NCBI GenBank assembly: GCA_013368795.1
Contig: JABFXX010000408.1
Location: forward strand, 1-64,000
DNA length: 64,000 bases
DNA from: Kofleriaceae bacterium
Lineage (GTDB): Bacteria; Myxococcota_A; Polyangia; Haliangiales; Haliangiaceae
Direction of reading: 5' to 3'
Shown: positions 945 through 13,593 of the stretch, in pieces
Layout: each line of letters starts with the position of its first letter
How positions within the stretch are numbered: position 1 is the first letter of the stretch
Made by a program: the position numbers and the translations under genes
Notes under the pieces: model-generated
Seen by the model: the letters and a program-made list of their open reading frames with translations, nothing else
The model's database searches: none
What the model was told of the DNA's origin: nothing

Positions 945-1603
945 GTCATCACGAGGTACATCACCGCTTCGGTCTTGCCCGGATTGCGATAGGCGTGCGG
1001 CGTGTCGGCCTCGAACAGGATCGAGTCGCCGGTGTCGAGGCGATGGGTGTCGCCCGCGACATCGATCTCGATCGTGCCGGCGGTGACGACGAGGTTCTCG
1101 GTCGTGCCCGGCGGGTGCGCGTCGGCATCCTCGACGCTGCCACCGGCGAGGCGGAGCTCGTAGAACTCGACCCGGCGGGGCTCGTCGAACGGGAACAGCG
1201 CGCGCGACGAGAACGAGCGGTCCTTGCTCGTGAGGATCTTGGACTCGGCGGAGCGCAGGACGAGCGCGCCCGACTGGGTACGCGCGCTGATGAGCGCCGA
1301 GAACGTCACCTCGAGCGCGCGCGCGATCTTCCACAGGACGTTGATCGTCGGCGCGGACTGGCCGAGCTCGATCTGGCCGAGCATCGCGCGGGAGACGCCG
1401 GAGATCTGGGCGAGGCGCTCGAGCGAGAGGCCGCGGCGCGTACGGAGCCGGCGAAGGTTTGCACCGACGACCGGTGCGAGATCGGTCGACTCTCCGGCCG
1501 CAGCCGGCTGAGCCGCGGCCGGCGGAGCGGCCTCTTCTGGACGCGAAGCCTTCTCCACCCGTTGGCTAGCCACGTTTGTACCTGACGCTTTCTTCTTCTT
1601 CAC
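923..1603 (-). CDS. XRE-family transcriptional regulator with C-terminal cupin domain
   Basis: HTH LRRLRTRRGLSLERLAQISGVSRAMLGQIELGQSAPT and cupin-like C-terminus; GTG start at 1603 preferred over 1633 because it forms a GTGA overlap with the upstream micro-ORF. Confidence 0.85.
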   Translation of the reverse strand: MKKKKASGTNVASQRVEKASRPEEAAPPAAAQPAAAGESTDLAPVVGANLRRLRTRRGLSLERLAQISGVSRAMLGQIELGQSAPTINVLWKIARALEVTFSALISARTQSGALVLRSAESKILTSKDRSFSSRALFPFDEPRRVEFYELRLAGGSVEDADAHPPGTTENLVVTAGTIEIDVAGDTHRLDTGDSILFEADTPHAYRNPGKTEAVMYLVMTYAEEIG

Positions 1604-1758
1604 CAGACCCAAACCGGGACCCAGTATACCCACACGGCAGGCGCCGCCGGGGTCATGGGAACCGGGTTCGGGCGCGGCGCCATCGTCTGCCGAGCACCGC
1701 GCGAACGACGGTACTCGTCGAGGTCCACGATGTTCGAGGCAACAGCGCTGCGGCTCAT
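1600..1758 (-). CDS. Micro-ORF (52 aa) MSRSAVASNIVDLDEYRRSRGARQ...VWVW
   Basis: In-frame in track ORF 1600..1794; stop TGA overlaps GTG of the XRE gene; promoter-like sequence immediately upstream. Confidence 0.5.
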   Translation of the reverse strand: MSRSAVASNIVDLDEYRRSRGARQTMAPRPNPVPMTPAAPAVWVYWVPVWVW

Positions 1759-1765
1759 GATTAGA

Positions 1766-1794
1766 TTTGTATCCGCTACAGCGGACACGGTCAA
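1766..1794 (-). promoter_or_regulatory. Sigma70-like promoter TTGACC-N17-TACAAA with dyad TCCGCT-GT-AGCGGA filling the spacer
   Basis: Reverse strand reads TTGACCGTGTCCGCTGTAGCGGATACAAATCTAATCATG. Confidence 0.6.
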
Positions 1795-1868
1795 TCTGTT
1801 TTCACGGATGAACCGTCAACCTGTTGATATAGTACGGGTATTCGACTGGGAGAACGACCGTACGAAGT

Positions 1869-3086
1869 TCAGGCTCCGTGGGCGACGCTGCCCGGACTGC
1901 CGTAGGCCGACTCGCCGTGGAGCACGCCATCGAGGCCGTCGTGCTCCGCCTCCTGGTCGACCCGCAGGCCAACCGTGAGGTCGATGAGCTTGAGCAGGAC
2001 GAACGTGACGACCGCGGCCCACGCACCGGCCGCCGCGATGCCGATCGCTTGCTTGCCCAGGAGCGAGAGGCCGCCGCCGTTGCCGCCGTTGAGCGCGGCG
2101 CGGGCGAACACGCCGGTCAGGAGCGCGCCGGTCGCGCCGCCGACACCGTGGACGCCGAACGCGTCGAGCGCGTCGTCGTAGCCGAGCTTGGCCTTCGCGA
2201 GCACCGCGCCGTAACAGATGGCGCCCGCGGCGCAGCCGATGCCGATGGCGGCCATCGGCGATACGAAGCCGGCGGCCGGCGTGATCGCGACGAGGCCTGC
2301 GACGAGACCGGACGCGAAGCCGAGCATCGTGCACTTCTTGATGCGCGAGCCCTCGACGATGCACCACGTGAGCGCGGCGGCGCCCGCGGCGAGGTGCGTG
2401 TTGACGAGCGCGAGCGCGGCGGTGCCGTTGGCGCCCGCGCCGCCGGCGTTGAAGCCGAACCAGCCGAACCACAAGAGGCCCGCGCCGATCGTCGTCATCG
2501 TGAGGTCGTGCGGCGGATGGCGCACCGACGGATAGCCGCGGCGCTTGCCGAGCACGATCGCGACGACGAGCGCCGAGATGCCCGACGAGAGATGGACGAC
2601 GGTGCCGCCCGCGTAGTCGATCGCGCCGAGCTTCATCAGCCAGCCGCCCGGTGCCCACGACCAGTGCGCGATCGGGTCGTACACGAGCGTCGTCCAGCCG
2701 AGCGAGAACAGCACGTAGGCGGAGAACTTGAGCCGCTCGGCGTACGCGCCGGAGATGAGCGCGGGCGCGATGACCGCGAACATGCATTGGTACGCGAAGA
2801 ACGCGAGCTCGGGGACGCTGCCGTGCATCGACGTCTGCGACAGGCCGTCGAGCGCGAACAGGTTGAAGCCGCCGATGATCCCGTTCCAGCTATCGCCGAA
2901 CGCCAGCGTGTAGCCGACGACCGCGAACTGGATCGTGACCAGACCCAGCGAGAAGAAGCTGTGCATGAACGTAGAGAGGACGTTCTTGCCCTGCACCATG
3001 CCGCCGTAGAACAGCGCGAGTGCCGGCGTCATCAGCATGACGAGCGCGGCTGAGATCAGGAGCCATACGGTGTCGCCATCGGCCAT
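1869..3086 (-). CDS. amt: Ammonium transporter (Amt family)
   Basis: Amt signature MTPALALFYGGMVQGKNVLSTFMHSF and conserved TM segments. Confidence 0.96.
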   Translation of the reverse strand: MADGDTVWLLISAALVMLMTPALALFYGGMVQGKNVLSTFMHSFFSLGLVTIQFAVVGYTLAFGDSWNGIIGGFNLFALDGLSQTSMHGSVPELAFFAYQCMFAVIAPALISGAYAERLKFSAYVLFSLGWTTLVYDPIAHWSWAPGGWLMKLGAIDYAGGTVVHLSSGISALVVAIVLGKRRGYPSVRHPPHDLTMTTIGAGLLWFGWFGFNAGGAGANGTAALALVNTHLAAGAAALTWCIVEGSRIKKCTMLGFASGLVAGLVAITPAAGFVSPMAAIGIGCAAGAICYGAVLAKAKLGYDDALDAFGVHGVGGATGALLTGVFARAALNGGNGGGLSLLGKQAIGIAAAGAWAAVVTFVLLKLIDLTVGLRVDQEAEHDGLDGVLHGESAYGSPGSVAHGA

Positions 3087-3138
3087 GAGACGACTTTGAC
3101 CGGGAGCATGTTTCCGGCCGGTAACCGGCTCGCAAAAC

Positions 3139-3777
3139 CTATTTGGTGCCGAACAGGCGATCGCCCGCGTCGCCGAGGCCCGGGACGATGTAGCTCTTCT
3201 CGTTGAGCGCGTCGTCGACCGCGGCCGTATAGATCGGCACGTCGGGGTGGGTCGCGTGGAATACGCGGATGCCCTCGGGGCAGGTGAGCAGACAGACGAA
3301 CTTGATCGAGCGAGGGCCGCTCTCCTTCAGGCGATCGATCGCGGCGACGGCAGAGTTGCCGGTCGCGAGCATCGGGTCGACGACGATCGCGTCGCGGTCA
3401 CCCATGTTGTCGGGGACCTTGTAGTAGTACTCGACGGCGACGAGCGTCTTGGGGTCGCGGTAGAGGCCGATGTGGCCGACGCGCGCCGACGGCAAGATGT
3501 CGAGCATGCCGTCGAGGATTCCGTTGCCGGCGCGCAGGATCGAGATGAGGACGGTCTTCTTGCCGTCGAGCACCGGCGCGTAGGTCGTCGCGATCGGCGT
3601 ATCGATCTTGATCTTCGTCGTCGGCAGGTCCCGGCACACCTCGTAGGCCAGGAGCATGCTGATCTCGCGGAGCAGATTTCTGAACGTGCTGGTGCTGGTC
3701 TCCTTCGAGCGCATCAGCGTCAGCTTGTGTTGGACCAGCGGATGATCGATGACGTGAACCTTGCCGGGCATCTGCAC
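3139..3777 (-). CDS. upp: Uracil phosphoribosyltransferase
   Basis: [46 protein letters not shown] and the PRPP motif [12 protein letters not shown]. Confidence 0.96.
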
Positions 3778-3791
3778 CGGCTACGGTAGCA

Positions 3792-3947
3792 CTAGCGCTG
3801 CGCGACCTGCGCCGACGCGACGTGCGACGCGGTCGAGACGGTCACGACCGAGACCGTGGCGGCGAGCGCGACGCACGCGGCGAAGAAGGCGTCACGGACG
3901 CGGTTCTTGCTCTGGCGGGTGGCGATCGTGTCGAGGCGAGTGTTCAT
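3792..3947 (-). CDS. 51-aa microprotein, paralogue 1: MNTRLDTIATRQSKNRVRDAFFAACVALAATVSVVTVSTASHVASAQVAQR
   Basis: Hand translation; SD-like GAAAGGA upstream of ATG; homologous to the next feature. Missing from the supplied track because it is short. Confidence 0.8.
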   Translation of the reverse strand: MNTRLDTIATRQSKNRVRDAFFAACVALAATVSVVTVSTASHVASAQVAQR

Positions 3948-3975
3948 GGCTAGTGTCCTTTCGAGAGGCCGTTAT

Positions 3976-3991
3976 TGCGAGCGGGATGCCA
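3976..3991 (-). promoter_or_regulatory. Sigma54-like -24/-12 box TGGCATCCCGCTCGCA
   Basis: Matches TGGCA-N6-T-N-GCA; GG and GC spaced as in the sigma54 consensus; 28 nt upstream of the microprotein ATG. Confidence 0.4.
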
Positions 3992-4085
3992 CGGCCTTCA
4001 TGTGAGATTTCGATGGGTTGCGGTGCGGTGAACGTCTCTTGTCCTGTCGCACCCGGTGTCGCGGTCCCGGACGCAGTCGCAGGCG

Positions 4086-4241
4086 TTAGCGATGGGCGAG
4101 CTGCGCGTGCGACGCGTGCACGGCGGCGTGAACCGTCGTGACCGAGAGGGCACCCGCGAGCACGACCAACGCGGCGAACGCGAGGTCACGAACGCGAGAC
4201 TTGCGCTGGCGAGAAACGATCGTGTCGAGGCGGGTGTTCAT
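4086..4241 (-). CDS. 51-aa microprotein, paralogue 2: MNTRLDTIVSRQRKSRVRDLAFAALVVLAGALSVTTVHAAVHASHAQLAHR
   Basis: Hand translation; SD AAGGAG upstream of ATG; about 60% identical to paralogue 1 by manual alignment. Confidence 0.8.
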   Translation of the reverse strand: MNTRLDTIVSRQRKSRVRDLAFAALVVLAGALSVTTVHAAVHASHAQLAHR

Positions 4242-4276
4242 CGTGGGCTCCTTGGCTGCGGACGGGAGAGCCCTTC

Positions 4277-4292
4277 TTCAACTGCGATGCCA
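4277..4292 (-). promoter_or_regulatory. Sigma54-like -24/-12 box TGGCATCGCAGTTGAA
   Basis: Same TGGCATC block as upstream of paralogue 1, with TTG at the -12 position (C of GC replaced by A). Confidence 0.35.
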
Positions 4293-4387
4293 CCTCGACG
4301 ATGAATCGCTGCGCGCAGTTAGCGATGATCGCGAGCAGCCGCGACTGTCGCACGCGCTGTCGCAGGACGCGTCGCCCCGCCGGATCG

Positions 4388-5662
4388 CTAGAACACGGTT
4401 CCGTCGGACGCGATCTGGATCGGCGGTCCGCCGGTCGGGCGCAGCCGTGCAGCGACGGCGCGTCCCGCGGCCCACGTCCCACCCTCGAGGATGTTCGCGA
4501 GCGGCAGCTGAGTCGGCGTCTTGCCGAGCCGTTCGCGCACGCGCTCGGCGACGCGATCGAGCAGCGCGACGGTGAGCGCGCGCCACTCGACGATCACCTC
4601 GTCGCCGGGAGAGTGAACCTCGCCGCGAACCGCGTCGTGCTTCGGCACGAGCACGCCGAGATCGATGAGCAGGCCGCCGTTGCGATACTCGGGCAAGCCG
4701 GTGAGCGCGCCGGGCTGCGCGATCGTGTGACCCGCGCGCTGGAGCGGCTCGAACAGCGAGTACGAGAGCCACTGCGAGAGCTTGTGAAACGGCACGAGGC
4801 CGGCCGACGATCCGGTGCCGCCGGCGTACGGATGGCGCCAGACGTCGCCCATGTTGACGCCGGCGAGCTCGATGCGACCCGGCCAGATCGGCCCCAGACC
4901 GTCGAGCAGCGCGTGCAGGATCGCGGGCGCCTCGATCGGCGTCGAGATGCCGTGGAAGCTGTACGACGCGCCAGGCGCCTTCTTCTCGGCGGCGATCCAC
5001 AGCAGGTGATCGAGCAGCGAGCCGGGCCGCTCCTGCGGGAAGATCATCGGCGCGTTGATCATCGCGTCGCCGAGCGAGCGCACGAGGTTGATGCGGCCGT
5101 CGACGCCGACGAGCGGGTTCGCGTCGCTGACCTGGAATGCGTCGGCGAGCGCGCGCGGCTCGAGCGTCTTCAGCGCCGACGCATCGACGCGCAGCGGCTG
5201 CGACGGATCGGCCGAGAACAGACCGGCCTCGAACGCGTGGTAGCTCGCGACCGCGAGTCCCTCGGAGCGGCCGATCGAGAGTCCGGTGCCCGGCTCGCGG
5301 AACCGCCACGCGTCGCCGGCGCCCGCGTCGAGCAGCACCGAGACCATGACGAGGTCGATCCACGCGCGCGATTGCTCGTCGGCGGGAAGGCTCGCGAGCT
5401 TGGCGTCGAGCTGGGCGACGCGATCGACGCCGCCGGCGCGGAAGTGGTTGATGCGGCCGTGAACCGGGATGTCGAGCGTCGGGTAGTGCGCGCGCGTCAC
5501 CGCGATGACTTCGTCGACGACACCGGACAGCGCGCCGAGGTCGACCGCGAAGTGCGAGAGCTGCCCGCGCAGGCCCGCGTCGAGGATGTTCTCGCAGCGA
5601 GCGCGAATGGCGAGCGGCGAGCGGAGGTACGCGACCGCAGTCTCGGCTTCGCTCGACGACAT
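4388..5662 (-). CDS. DUF1688 / URC4-Urg3 family uracil catabolism protein
   Basis: AVAYLRSPLAIRARCENIL, WRFREPGTG, GRSEGLAVASYHAF and WIAAEKKAPGASYSFHGISTPIEAPAI resemble the DUF1688 family. Confidence 0.85.
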   Translation of the reverse strand: MSSSEAETAVAYLRSPLAIRARCENILDAGLRGQLSHFAVDLGALSGVVDEVIAVTRAHYPTLDIPVHGRINHFRAGGVDRVAQLDAKLASLPADEQSRAWIDLVMVSVLLDAGAGDAWRFREPGTGLSIGRSEGLAVASYHAFEAGLFSADPSQPLRVDASALKTLEPRALADAFQVSDANPLVGVDGRINLVRSLGDAMINAPMIFPQERPGSLLDHLLWIAAEKKAPGASYSFHGISTPIEAPAILHALLDGLGPIWPGRIELAGVNMGDVWRHPYAGGTGSSAGLVPFHKLSQWLSYSLFEPLQRAGHTIAQPGALTGLPEYRNGGLLIDLGVLVPKHDAVRGEVHSPGDEVIVEWRALTVALLDRVAERVRERLGKTPTQLPLANILEGGTWAAGRAVAARLRPTGGPPIQIASDGTVF

Positions 5663-5760
5663 CAAGGCACACAGGCTACCGGACGTGCCGGGCGACCGCC
5701 AAGGGTCACATGACGTTCGTGACGAAACGCTGGCGCCGGAACCGGGTTTACGAGAACCGA

Positions 5761-7020
<1,260 letters not shown>

Positions 7021-7116
7021 CGCGGGAAGTAGTTGAGACTAGACCCGAAGGACCGTGCCGTCCACTGCCGTGCTTTTGCCGTCCCGAGGACCTACGCCTC
7101 GCGTGTCCTGAGAATC

Positions 7117-7920
7117 ATGAGCAAACTCGCCGTCCTCGTCGTCCTCACTGCAACCTCCAGTGCTTGCACGACCCTCGGGCCGATGCCGGCCACCACGGGC
7201 GTCTCGGCGGTACCGATCGGTCGCCCTGGCGTGCAGGGTCAGGTGGGTGCGGTGCCGGGCTTTTATGCGAGCAGCGCGGCGCAGAACAAGGCAGAAGGCG
7301 CGCCGATCCAGCACCTGTCGGCACTCCTCGATCTCGATCGCTGGCTCGCCGTGAAGGGCTTCATCGTCGGCGGTCGCATCTTCGGCCAGAGCGGCGACAC
7401 GCCCGGCGAGCCGTACGTCGGCTATCGCAAGAACCTCGGCACGGTGTCGCTCGCGGGGGTCGGCTTCGCCTCGAGCAAGCGCAGCGAGCAGAAGCTCGCC
7501 TCGTATCACGGGTTCCGGATCGGCGGCGAAGGCATCGCGGACGCGACGCTGTATCAGCCGGTGTCGTGGATCGGGCTCCACGCGCAGCTGGCCGCGTCGC
7601 TCACGCGGATCACCGCGAGCGGCTCGTACTGCGTCGACGACATGGGCATCGCGGCCGACTGCGACGTCGAGAATCCGTCGACGAACGTCATGATCTCGGG
7701 CAAGGACACCGGCGTCTATCCGGCGGCGACGGGCACGCTCGCGCTCGATATCGGGCCTCACCACGGCACGTTCGACTCGGCGAGGCTCGCGGTGCTCGGC
7801 GGCGTCGGCACGATGCCGCTGATCGTCGACGGCGAGAAGCAGGACACGCGCGCGTACTTCACGCTCGGCCTGACGCTGTCGGTCGGCCTTGGCTTCGACG
7901 AGCCCGCGCCCGCGCAGTAA
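7117..7920 (+). CDS. Lipoprotein, outer-membrane-like hypothetical protein
   Basis: Start MSKLAVLVVLTATSSACTT (lipobox-like) inside track ORF 7033..7920. Confidence 0.65.
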   Translation: MSKLAVLVVLTATSSACTTLGPMPATTGVSAVPIGRPGVQGQVGAVPGFYASSAAQNKAEGAPIQHLSALLDLDRWLAVKGFIVGGRIFGQSGDTPGEPYVGYRKNLGTVSLAGVGFASSKRSEQKLASYHGFRIGGEGIADATLYQPVSWIGLHAQLAASLTRITASGSYCVDDMGIAADCDVENPSTNVMISGKDTGVYPAATGTLALDIGPHHGTFDSARLAVLGGVGTMPLIVDGEKQDTRAYFTLGLTLSVGLGFDEPAPAQ

Positions 7921-7938
7921 CCGAGGTAGGCTGCGGCC

Positions 7939-9318
7939 GTGAGTCTCGCGGACCGCCGAGGGCTACGGCTGTTCACCCTGTGTGCGCTCTACGTCGCGCA
8001 GGGCATCCCGTGGGGCTTCATGGCGACGACGCTGCCCGGCTATCTCACGCAGCGCGGCGTCGACGCCGGGATCGTCGGCGCGATGCTGTCGTTCACGACG
8101 CTGCCGTACTCGTTCAAGTGGATCTGGGGACCGATCATCGACTCGTTCACGATCCACCGGTTCGGCAAGCGGCGGCCGTGGATCGTGTTCGCGCAGGCGA
8201 TGATGGCCGCGACGATGATCGTGCTGGTCACCTTCGACCTCGGCACGGACATCAAGTTGCTGACGTGGACGATCCTGATCCACACCGTCTTCAACTCGCT
8301 GCAAGACGTCTCCGTCGACGCGATGGCGACCGACCTGCTCGAGGACAGCGAGCGCGGTCTCGCCAACGGCCTCATGTACGGGTCGAAGTACCTCGGCGGC
8401 GGCATCGGCGGGTACGGGGTCGCGAAGCTGATGAGCGAGACGAGCCTCGACACGGCGCTGATCGCGCAGACGATCGTCCTCGTCGCGATCATGCTCGTCC
8501 CGATCTTCGTCCGCGAGCGGAACGAGCCGGCGGCGGAGGCAGTGCTGCCGGAAGCGCGCACGCGCGAGCCGGCCTGGCAGCGCGTCGTCGGTCCGTTGCG
8601 CGAGACGCTCTCGGCGATGGGCCAGGCGTTCTCGCTGAGGTCGACGATCGTCGCGTCGCTGCTGATGCTATCCGCGAACTTTGCGATCGGCGTGATCGCC
8701 GCGAACGGCTATCCGCTATTCATCACGAAGCTCGGCTGGACCTATGACGAGCTCGCGGTCATCACCGGCGGCTGGGGGCTCGTCGTCGGCGGCACGTGCG
8801 CCGCTGCGACGGGCTTTCTCGTCGACAAGTTTGGCCGCCGTCGCGTCGCCGCGATCGCGCTGTGCGCGATGGCCACCGGCTGGACGACGTTCTCGCTGCT
8901 CGAGTCGTACTGGCACGTGCGCACGCTCGTCTACGTCTCCGGGTTCTACGAGGCCGCGTGTCAGTCGGTGATGTCGGTGGCGCTCATCGCGCTGTGCATG
9001 GATCTGACGTGGCCCAAGATCGCGGGCTCGATGTTCGCCGCGTTCATGGCGCTGTCGAACTTCTCGACGACGCTGGGCTACCAGTTCGCCGCGAAGATCA
9101 GCTCGCTGCTGGGGTTCAGCGGCACCTACCTCGCATGCGCGGGGATGCAGCTCGTCGTCGCGCTGCTGCTCATTCCCATCGACCGGCTCGAGGTCCGCAC
9201 GAAGCTGCCATTGCCTGCCGGGACGAAGCCCAATCGCGTCGGGCTGACGGCATTTCTGGTCCTGGTGGCATTTCTGATCGCGATGACGATCAAGCAGACG
9301 CTCAAGTACGTCGGCTGA
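7939..9318 (+). CDS. MFS transporter, AmpG/PAT family-like
   Basis: CALYVAQGIPWGFMATTLPGYLTQRG, SFKWIWGPIIDSF, multiple TM helices. Confidence 0.85.
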   Translation: MSLADRRGLRLFTLCALYVAQGIPWGFMATTLPGYLTQRGVDAGIVGAMLSFTTLPYSFKWIWGPIIDSFTIHRFGKRRPWIVFAQAMMAATMIVLVTFDLGTDIKLLTWTILIHTVFNSLQDVSVDAMATDLLEDSERGLANGLMYGSKYLGGGIGGYGVAKLMSETSLDTALIAQTIVLVAIMLVPIFVRERNEPAAEAVLPEARTREPAWQRVVGPLRETLSAMGQAFSLRSTIVASLLMLSANFAIGVIAANGYPLFITKLGWTYDELAVITGGWGLVVGGTCAAATGFLVDKFGRRRVAAIALCAMATGWTTFSLLESYWHVRTLVYVSGFYEAACQSVMSVALIALCMDLTWPKIAGSMFAAFMALSNFSTTLGYQFAAKISSLLGFSGTYLACAGMQLVVALLLIPIDRLEVRTKLPLPAGTKPNRVGLTAFLVLVAFLIAMTIKQTLKYVG

Positions 9319-10368: not shown

Positions 10369-12144
10369 ATGCTCCAGGCGGGGGACGCGCCGATCGACCG
10401 GTATGTCGTGCTCGAGCACCTCTCCGAGGGTGGCATGGGCGCGATCTACGTCGGTAAGAAGATGGGCGCGGGCGGCTTCGAGATGGAGGTCGTCCTGAAG
10501 CAGCTCCTGCCGGAGTTCACGCAGCAGGAGGAGTTCATCGACCTGTTCCTGCGCGAGGCGAAGCTCTCGGCGACGCTCGATCACGCGAACATCGTCCACA
10601 CGATCGATCTCGTCACCGCGGGCGGCGAGTACTTCATCGTGATGGAGTACCTGCCGGGCGGCGACCTGCGCACGCTGCTCAAGAAGGCGAAGCGCCGCGG
10701 CAAGCGGTTCTCGCCGGCCGCGGCGATCTACATCTCGCGCGAGGTGCTGTCGGCGCTGGCCTACGCGCACAGCAAGCGCGACTTCGACGGCAACCCGCTC
10801 AAGCTGATCCATCGCGACGTCTCGCCGTCGAACATCCTGCTGTCGTACTCGGGCGAGGTGAAGCTGACCGACTTCGGCATCGCGAAGGCGGCGACGCACA
10901 CGTCGCTGTTCTACAAGGTGAAGGGCAAGGTCGGCTACATGTCGCCCGAGCAGGCGAAGAGCGAGGCGATGGATCATCGCTCGGACCTCTACTCGCTCGC
11001 GGTCTGCATGTACGAGATCCTGACGGGCGAGCGACTGTTCGTGCACGCGGGCCTGACGACGAGCGCCGACGAGATCTACTCGCAGCAGGTGCCGCAGATC
11101 TCGCGCAAGGTGCCGGGACTGCCCGCCGACATGGACGCGATCATGGCGAAGGCGCTCTCGCTGTCGCCCGACAAGCGGTTCCAGACGGCGGGCGAGTTCC
11201 AGGAGGCGTTGATGCGCTGCGCGCACCGCAACGGTCTCCTCATGAGCGCGCCCGAGCTCGCGAACGAGCTACGCGATGCGTGCGGGCCTCCCGATCAGTG
11301 GCGCGGCGACGACGATGACGACGAGCTCGAGCTCGGCGCGCCGCGCGCGGGCACCGAGGTCTACGATCCGGCGGCTGACGACGACGACGAGGATTACGAC
11401 GACGCGATGCTCTCCGGCCCGCTGTCGATCCACAGCATCGCGGCGCGCGCGAAGTCGCCGTCGGCGAGCGGCAAGCTGATGCCGCCGAAGCTGCCGCTGC
11501 CCGCAGAGGCGAAGTCGCCGCCGCTCGGCGTGAAGTCGATGGTGCCGGCGAAGCTGCCGCGGCCGAAGACGGAGGTCGATCGCTTTCACGGCGTCGAGCT
11601 GACGTCGATCATCAACATGATGGATCTCGACGAGCAGGGCGCGCAGCCGCTCGTCGATCTCAGCATGGCGCCGTCGCTCGACTCGGGGCCACGTCTGCTC
11701 GATTCGGGGCCGCGCTCGCTGTCGGATGACTCGGGGCCGCAATCGTTCCCGACGGCGAATCCGCGCAGCCGCATCGACTCGGATCCGGCGCTCAATTCGC
11801 TCGTGTCGTCGCTGCCGCCCGCCGGCGCGATGCTGCCGCGGCCGATCGCGCAGCCTCGTGCCACGGGCACGATGGCAAAGCCGAGATCGACGGCCAGTGC
11901 TCCCGCGCCCGCGGCGCCGAGTGCGCTCGTCGATCCGTCGGACATCATGCCGACGCTGCCGCGACGCACGTTCGATCAGGTGCAGGCGCCTCAGATCCAG
12001 AAGACATCGCAGAAGCGCGCGCAGACGCCAGGATCACGCAGCGTGATTCGCCCGTGGATGGTGATCGCAGTGGTCGTACTCGTCGCGCTCATCGTCACGT
12101 TGATCGTCGCTTTCTCGGGCCCTGACGTGGCGGCTGGAAAGTAG
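10369..12144 (+). CDS. Ser/Thr protein kinase with C-terminal TM helix
   Basis: YVVLEHLSEGGMGAIYVGKK, HRDVSPSNILLS, DFGIAKAATHTS. Confidence 0.93.
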   Translation: MLQAGDAPIDRYVVLEHLSEGGMGAIYVGKKMGAGGFEMEVVLKQLLPEFTQQEEFIDLFLREAKLSATLDHANIVHTIDLVTAGGEYFIVMEYLPGGDLRTLLKKAKRRGKRFSPAAAIYISREVLSALAYAHSKRDFDGNPLKLIHRDVSPSNILLSYSGEVKLTDFGIAKAATHTSLFYKVKGKVGYMSPEQAKSEAMDHRSDLYSLAVCMYEILTGERLFVHAGLTTSADEIYSQQVPQISRKVPGLPADMDAIMAKALSLSPDKRFQTAGEFQEALMRCAHRNGLLMSAPELANELRDACGPPDQWRGDDDDDELELGAPRAGTEVYDPAADDDDEDYDDAMLSGPLSIHSIAARAKSPSASGKLMPPKLPLPAEAKSPPLGVKSMVPAKLPRPKTEVDRFHGVELTSIINMMDLDEQGAQPLVDLSMAPSLDSGPRLLDSGPRSLSDDSGPQSFPTANPRSRIDSDPALNSLVSSLPPAGAMLPRPIAQPRATGTMAKPRSTASAPAPAAPSALVDPSDIMPTLPRRTFDQVQAPQIQKTSQKRAQTPGSRSVIRPWMVIAVVVLVALIVTLIVAFSGPDVAAGK

Positions 12145-12207
12145 CGAAGATCGTTCGGGGATCTAGAGGGGTGGGGGTATAGACACCACGTCCCGCGTGG
12201 GACTACC

Positions 12208-13593
12208 ATGATGATGGCTGACCGGATGTCTCGCGATCGATCCAATGTCACCGCGCTCCTGGACGACGCCCCGTCCTATTCGCGGCAAAACGCGGGCGGG
12301 ATCTTCGTCGTCATCAAGGGACCCGATCGCGGCGAAGCGGTTCGGCTGACGAACGAGCCCGTCTCGTTCGGCTCGGGCCCGCAGTGCAGCCTCGTGCTCA
12401 CCGACAAGACGGTGTCGCGCAAGCACCTCGAGGCGTCGCTCGTCGGCGACGAGGTCGTGATGAGCGACTGCGGCTCGACGAACGGCACGTTCATCCAGGG
12501 CTCGCGCTTCGAGAAGATCTCGATCGGCTTTGGCGCCGAGGTGAAGCTCGGCCGCACCGTCATCAAGTTCCTGCCCGACGAGGAGATCGTCGAGCCGGAG
12601 CCGAGCGCGCAGGCCGCGTTCGGGTCGATCGTCGGCGGCGACACGAAGATGCGCCAGATGTTCACGCTCCTCGAGGACGTCGCCGCGACGAACGCGACGG
12701 TACTCATCGAGGGCGAGACCGGCACCGGCAAGGAGCTGATCGCCGAGGAGATCCACAATCACTCGCCGCGCAAGGACGGTCCGTTCGTCGTGTTCGACTG
12801 CGGCAGTGTCCCGCGCGAGCTGATCGAATCGATGCTGTTCGGCCACGTGAAGGGCAGCTTCACCGGCGCGATCACGGATCGCCGCGGCGCGTTCGCCGAG
12901 GCCCACGGCGGCACGATCTTCCTCGACGAGATCGGCGAGATGGCGCTCGATCTCCAGCCGTCGCTGCTGCGCGTCCTCGACAAGCGCGCGGTGCGCAAGG
13001 TCGGCTCGAACACGTACGAGAAGATCGACGTCCGCGTCGTCGCGGCGACGAACCGCGACCTGCGCGCCGAAGTCGCGAAGAAGGCGTTCCGCGAGGACCT
13101 CTACTATCGCCTCGCCGTCATCCGCGTCTCGGTGCCGCCGCTGCGCGAGCGCGGCAGCGACATCCCGCTGCTCATCCAGCACTTCGTCAACAACTTCGGC
13201 CAGGGCCTCTCGGTCACGCCGGACGACATGGCGCGCCTCGTTCGCCACAGCTGGCCGGGCAACGTCCGCGAGCTGCGCAACGTGATCGAGCGTGCGTGTC
13301 TGCTCGCGCGCGGCTCGTCGATCAATCTCGAGGACGCGCTCGTCAGCGAGGCAGCTCCGAGCCTCGGCATCCGCACCGACCTGCCGTTCAAGGAAGCGAA
13401 GGGCCAGCTCGTCGAGCGGTTCGAGCAGGAGTACATCGAGGATCTGATGCGCCGGCACAAGATGAACTTGTCGGCGGCGGCGCGCGAAGCGCAGATCGAT
13501 CGCAAGCACCTGCGCGAGCTGATCCGCAAGTACGGTCTCGATCCTCGCCACCAGGGCAGCGAGGGCGCGAGCACCGAAGACGATCTGGACTAG
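12208..13593 (+). CDS. Sigma54-dependent transcriptional activator with N-terminal FHA domain
   Basis: FHA: VSRKHLEASLVGDEVVMSDCGSTNGTFI; AAA+: GETGTGKELIAEEIHNHSPR, GAFTGA equivalent GSFTGA; C-terminal Fis-type HTH. Confidence 0.95.
   Translation: MMMADRMSRDRSNVTALLDDAPSYSRQNAGGIFVVIKGPDRGEAVRLTNEPVSFGSGPQCSLVLTDKTVSRKHLEASLVGDEVVMSDCGSTNGTFIQGSRFEKISIGFGAEVKLGRTVIKFLPDEEIVEPEPSAQAAFGSIVGGDTKMRQMFTLLEDVAATNATVLIEGETGTGKELIAEEIHNHSPRKDGPFVVFDCGSVPRELIESMLFGHVKGSFTGAITDRRGAFAEAHGGTIFLDEIGEMALDLQPSLLRVLDKRAVRKVGSNTYEKIDVRVVAATNRDLRAEVAKKAFREDLYYRLAVIRVSVPPLRERGSDIPLLIQHFVNNFGQGLSVTPDDMARLVRHSWPGNVRELRNVIERACLLARGSSINLEDALVSEAAPSLGIRTDLPFKEAKGQLVERFEQEYIEDLMRRHKMNLSAAAREAQIDRKHLRELIRKYGLDPRHQGSEGASTEDDLD

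Follow-up and report, generated by a model that had tools for sequence, protein, structure and literature searches.

A multicopy family of predicted single-helix membrane microproteins carrying a sigma-54-like promoter module in uncultured myxobacteria

Two short open reading frames, twin 1 and twin 2, lie between the uracil phosphoribosyltransferase gene and a DUF1688 gene in contig JABFXX010000408.1 of a Kofleriaceae bacterium. The whole stretch of 64,000 nucleotides that was analysed is called the window. The features of the locus, all on the minus strand, are the following.

1869..3086 (-): amt, ammonium transporter (PF00909, E 2.5e-119)
3139..3771 (-): upp, uracil phosphoribosyltransferase (PF14681, E 1.6e-76), beginning 20 bp past the stop of twin 1
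3792..3947 (-): twin 1, upp-proximal copy, predicted single-pass membrane microprotein of 51 aa, ORF with a Shine-Dalgarno (SD) site
3976..3991 (-): sigma-54-like element of twin 1, TGGCATCCCGCTCGCA, GG-N10-GC, a pattern match with TGGC at 3988-3991
4045..4081 (-): repeats of twin 1, TGCGACT (4075-4081), CGCGACA (4057-4063) and TGCGACA (4045-4051)
4086..4241 (-): twin 2, upstream copy, predicted single-pass membrane microprotein of 51 aa, ORF with an SD site
4277..4292 (-): sigma-54-like element of twin 2, TGGCATCGCAGTTGAA, GG-N10-GA
4346..4364 (-): repeats of twin 2, TGCGACA at 4358-4364 and at 4346-4352
4388..5662 (-): DUF1688 (URC4-like) gene (PF07958, E 4.6e-148)
5761..7020 (-): GTP cyclohydrolase II-like, RibA-like (URC1-like) gene (PF12471 and PF00925)

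An earlier, sequence-only reading of this DNA had described two paralogous 51-aa ORFs, each with an SD site and a single hydrophobic helix behind a basic N-terminus, inside a URC-type cluster, and this description holds. Both ORFs are present at equal length on the minus strand, begin with ATG and share 31 of 51 residues (61%); the SD sites are AAAGGA and AAGGAG, the N-termini carry a net charge of +3/+4 ahead of a single hydrophobic stretch, and the cluster is represented by the RibA-like protein, DUF1688 and Upp. Both twins score as coding (log-odds of about 21 and 15) under a codon-usage model built from the neighbouring genes, and a family profile search of their own genome recovers twin 1 at E 9e-18 and twin 2 at E 1.2e-19. 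The twin ORFs are real genes. In a protein tree, whose sequences are too short to settle most of the forks, twin 2 groups with weak support with the upstream copy of another genome (G007). Elsewhere in the window, at 601-940, the 3' end of an ORF at 286-753 is tandemly duplicated at 752-916, with 89% identity at the protein level.

Among 30 genomes from the window's GTDB family, protein and then profile searches detected homologues in 22 at E<1e-5 and in 25 at E<0.01. These homologues span several genera with their frames preserved, frequently occur as tandem pairs and reach profile E-values down to 1e-21. The absence of frame-preserved homologues had been named as the outcome that would speak against the pair, and such homologues are present in most genomes of the GTDB family. 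Samples of the class (318 genomes) and of the phylum (378 genomes) yielded no further genome with a match at the cut-off; these searches scored fewer candidates per genome than the family-level search, so highly divergent relatives could escape them. A narrower alignment against a wider contig collection returned six loci, in uncultured MAGs labelled Myxococcales or Deltaproteobacteria. The family had been called unrecognised, and indeed none in Pfam, NCBIfam, PADLOC or PDB matches the microproteins (at the curated cut-off, or at E below 0.001), while PHROG gives sub-threshold matches only. The closest orthologue pairs diverge chiefly at synonymous sites, with dN/dS of about 0.2-0.5 (dN 0.12 and dS 0.57 for the G003/G005 orthologues, dN 0.10 and dS 0.38 for the second copies of G027/G029), and purifying selection acts on the microproteins at the protein level. 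Judged by these searches, the microproteins are a real, previously unnamed, multicopy family that appears confined to one family of uncultured myxobacteria.

The members share the consensus MxxRLDxIAxRQRxxRxRDxxFA, followed by a hydrophobic stretch and a tail, and R18, D19 and F22 are near-invariant. Every copy has one hydrophobic stretch, with a Kyte-Doolittle maximum of about 2 over 19 residues in the twins. AlphaFold2 returns a single helix over residues 3-50 (mean pLDDT 83), a model to be expected for almost any comparable sequence. This anatomy suggests single-helix inner-membrane microproteins with the N-terminus inside.

Twelve genomes of the window's genus, g1, each carry a single copy of a diverged third member of 60-65 aa (MSxLxEIAxRHGRDRxKDAxFI...), and the window's own genome is one of the twelve (G000:C485); this member lies at L102:7066-7251 and also at L089-L098, L103 and L104. 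Profile-profile comparison links it to the main group with a probability of 96.6. It follows smc and a further conserved gene, and mostly converges with a gene that adjoins a MoxR-type ATPase gene; on the smc and MoxR sides, two identities were assigned from sequence by eye. Its upstream region holds a different conserved element, which by eye alone has a sigma-70 look.

The upstream regions of the main group, aligned by reading, contain in most copies a common module of one to three TGCGACA repeats followed by TGGC-N9-GA/GC. The repeats sit 90, 72 and 60 bp ahead of the -24 element in twin 1 and 72 and 60 bp ahead of it in twin 2, and throughout genus g1 these distances cluster at 60/61, 72/73 and 89/90 bp. 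Exact TGCGACA occurs 43 times in 43 upstream regions (1.2 expected from Markov shuffles), and a strong sigma-54-like element is found in 33 of the 43 (3.8 expected). Both marks together are present in 24 of the 43 microprotein copies and in none of 373 further genes from those loci, 372 of which lack TGCGACA sites at the fixed distance. A pattern search across the genus finds the module at the microproteins; elsewhere, among the matches listed, it is no commoner than a reversed-pattern control. The dinucleotide at -12, in the 32 copies with the -24 element and the spacing, is GA in 22, GC in 6, GT in 3 and GG in 1; since most copies have GA and not the consensus GC, sigma-54 dependence is uncertain and the element is referred to as sigma-54-like.

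Those upp genes that have no microprotein show no exact TGCGACA repeats, and TGGC-N9-G turns up before them sporadically, at varying positions and never with repeats. The promoter tracks the microprotein, not upp. Long intervals, usually of 100-500 bp, separate the microproteins from the gene upstream, and the same applies to many tandem copies. The module is missing from the second tandem copies of genus g5 (L048, L049, L050, L051 and L057) and from some others. Several of these g5 second copies share another conserved upstream stretch, which in three of them is GGAATTGTTGGGG.

The same assembly encodes rpoN (PF04552, E 7e-65), and no activator gene consistently adjoins the microprotein copies. 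A gene for a GAF-domain enhancer-binding protein (EBP) lies near copies in G019 and G022; it is at most a doubtful candidate for the cognate activator, as it occurs in nearly all genomes of the family, including those that lack the microprotein, and it was not detected at the cut-off in the window's assembly. The window itself holds, at 10369-13590, a Ser/Thr kinase gene followed by a gene for an FHA-domain sigma-54 activator. A generic sigma-70 scan of positions 3700-4450 found no site, and an Rfam scan of 1500-8000 found no match. A leader hairpin is visible in several copies; it is not claimed here, because the folding z-scores are not significant (median -0.6).

In ten genomes of genus g1 a microprotein gene immediately precedes upp in the same orientation, and its stop is 18-47 bp from upp in nearly all ten loci. 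DUF1688 is present at three of these ten loci and in five of 16 genus g1 genomes, whereas most of these genomes have the microprotein. Genera g4 and g5 possess DUF1688-upp clusters without a microprotein, and the microproteins of g4, g5, g6 and G012 are found downstream of mutS2. Further copies adjoin an OmpA-domain gene (G009, G020), an ABC1 kinase gene or an EBP gene. Because of this distribution of DUF1688, upp clusters and mutS2 copies, the microprotein does not track uracil catabolism, and the tie to that pathway that had been proposed falls away. Two outcomes of a homologue search had been envisaged, peptides that follow the URC genes or a larger multicopy family, and it is the second that was found. 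The microproteins as URC components were likewise rejected, as they are not co-distributed with DUF1688 and the RibA-like gene. The suggested link to ammonium uptake is weak as well, with amt missing at the G001 locus and at the loci without upp.

Several neighbours deserve mention in their own right. In two genera a microprotein pair is immediately followed by a gene for an OmpA-domain protein, and the two proteins are related (L046:9986-12244 and L053:10730-12958). Genes related to a GIDE-domain protein (PF12483, mostly weak matches) adjoin upp-linked copies in six genomes; the GIDE-related loci are L034, L035, L036, L037, L042, L045 and L105, with a duplicated GIDE-microprotein unit in L034, and in L105 (G002), a locus that lacks the microprotein, genes of similar size lie on either side of DUF1688. 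A 1071-aa metallophosphoesterase reading downstream of the mutS2-linked copies was dismissed: the neighbour there runs towards the microprotein gene, and its coding signal is on the opposite strand.

The reading that we favour, with somewhat better than even confidence, is that of lineage-restricted inner-membrane microproteins which are switched on together by an enhancer-binding protein through a sigma-54-type promoter and modulate a membrane partner. In most copies the self-contained expression unit would comprise an ORF of 48-83 aa with its SD site, preceded by a sigma-54-type promoter and, further upstream, one to three TGCGACA activator sites. Binding of the EBP to the TGCGACA repeats would activate all module-bearing copies at once; the microprotein would then span the membrane as a single long helix whose basic N-terminus faces the cytoplasm. 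Through its conserved juxtamembrane motif, RLDxIAxRQRxxRxRDxxFA, it would dock onto and modulate a membrane partner that these bacteria share. Because the unit immediately precedes upp in genus g1, read-through from the twin promoters probably extends into upp, and this gene would then respond incidentally to that signal as well. Since most copies carry their own promoter with TGCGACA sites, the module-bearing copies appear for the most part to form a set of genes with a switch of its own rather than components of the adjoining uracil-breakdown cluster. A bolder version, to which we would give about one chance in three, sees a regulon of its own, in which an autonomous cassette of gene and promoter has been duplicated genome-wide under one dedicated sigma-54 activator, serves as an effector of membrane stress or development, and captures neighbours such as upp.

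The main rival is that the microproteins are precursors of secreted short peptides, with a Sec signal helix cut at A-x-A and a C-terminal peptide that acts as a signal or an antimicrobial. Small residues do close the hydrophobic stretch, and an A-x-A site is present near its end, although equivocal as a cleavage site. The tails, too, are conserved: nearly all copies in genus g1 have Arg at or near the C-terminus (VAQR-type), and in g4, g5 and g6 the last residue of nearly all copies is Cys, preceded by another Cys at a distance of five to seven residues. Mean identity, however, is higher on the cytoplasmic side than in the tail (0.54 vs 0.44), an n-region of about 19 residues with a near-invariant Asp bordering the helix is unusual for a signal peptide, and no peptide exporter or receptor is found among the neighbours. 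Secretion is thus rated at roughly one chance in five, and the same holds for its corollary that the released peptide would be VAQR-type in genus g1 and end in a Cys pair in the others.

Direct regulation of the adjoining genes for uracil salvage or ammonium uptake, or of their proteins, would account for the same-strand position just upstream of upp in the ten genus g1 genomes. Homologues at unrelated loci, such as those at mutS2 and the OmpA-domain gene, do not fit it, nor do the upp loci of other genera that have no microprotein, the presence of DUF1688 at few of the loci and the locus without amt. With such a distribution, direct regulation of uracil or ammonium uptake is improbable, and we would put it at about one in ten. 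It is more doubtful still that the ORFs are translated leaders whose sole role is to couple transcription or translation of the next gene. The short and constant distance to upp would suit such a role, but the protein is under purifying selection, and at mutS2 and other loci the next genes are convergent, so that there is no downstream gene to lead. Type I toxin-like hydrophobic peptides maintained as tandem copies would likewise be small, membrane-spanning and intergenic; the charged cytosolic segment, which is long and conserved, the sigma-54-like promoter and its activator sites, and the lack of a PADLOC match make this a marginal candidate, slightly behind the leader ORF. For antisense RNA, the coverage was the Rfam scan, which came back empty. 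Spurious ORFs within intergenic DNA, suggested by small size alone, are refuted computationally by frames conserved in more than 20 genomes, dN well below dS, the SD sites and the profile E-values.

Protein families this small are mostly unannotated. Here the microprotein and its promoter are recognisable jointly, which offers a route to further members, to the activator and to the purpose of the switch, and the case illustrates that conserved adjacency to upp need not imply participation in uracil metabolism. The surprise lies in a dedicated promoter of fixed geometry, a module that the sequence-only reading had not reported; most members carry an inducible-looking promoter of their own.

Small bitopic inner-membrane proteins of the MgrB, KdpF, CydX and AcrZ type regulate or stabilise a larger membrane partner. 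The microproteins resemble them in size and in their one transmembrane helix, but differ in being multicopy, in carrying mostly their own sigma-54-like promoter and in matching no library profile. The URC cluster (URC1, URC4/DUF1688 and UPRTase) adjoins the twins in the window, yet is not co-distributed with the family. The closest parallel for the promoter comes from Myxococcus xanthus, whose sigma-54 consensus is TGGCACG-N4-TTGC(T/A) and whose EBPs bind short direct repeats, in the case of Nla28 8-bp direct repeats with the half-site CT(C/G)CG(C/G)AG (PMC9765219). The microprotein promoters share with the sigma-54 promoters of the Nla28 regulon the TGGC at -24, the GG-N10 spacing and direct repeats 60-90 bp upstream; unlike these, they mostly have GA rather than GC at -12, and their repeat is TGCGACA, not the Nla28 half-site. 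The module in genus g1 is, among the matches listed, confined to the microprotein family, unlike the Nla28 regulon.
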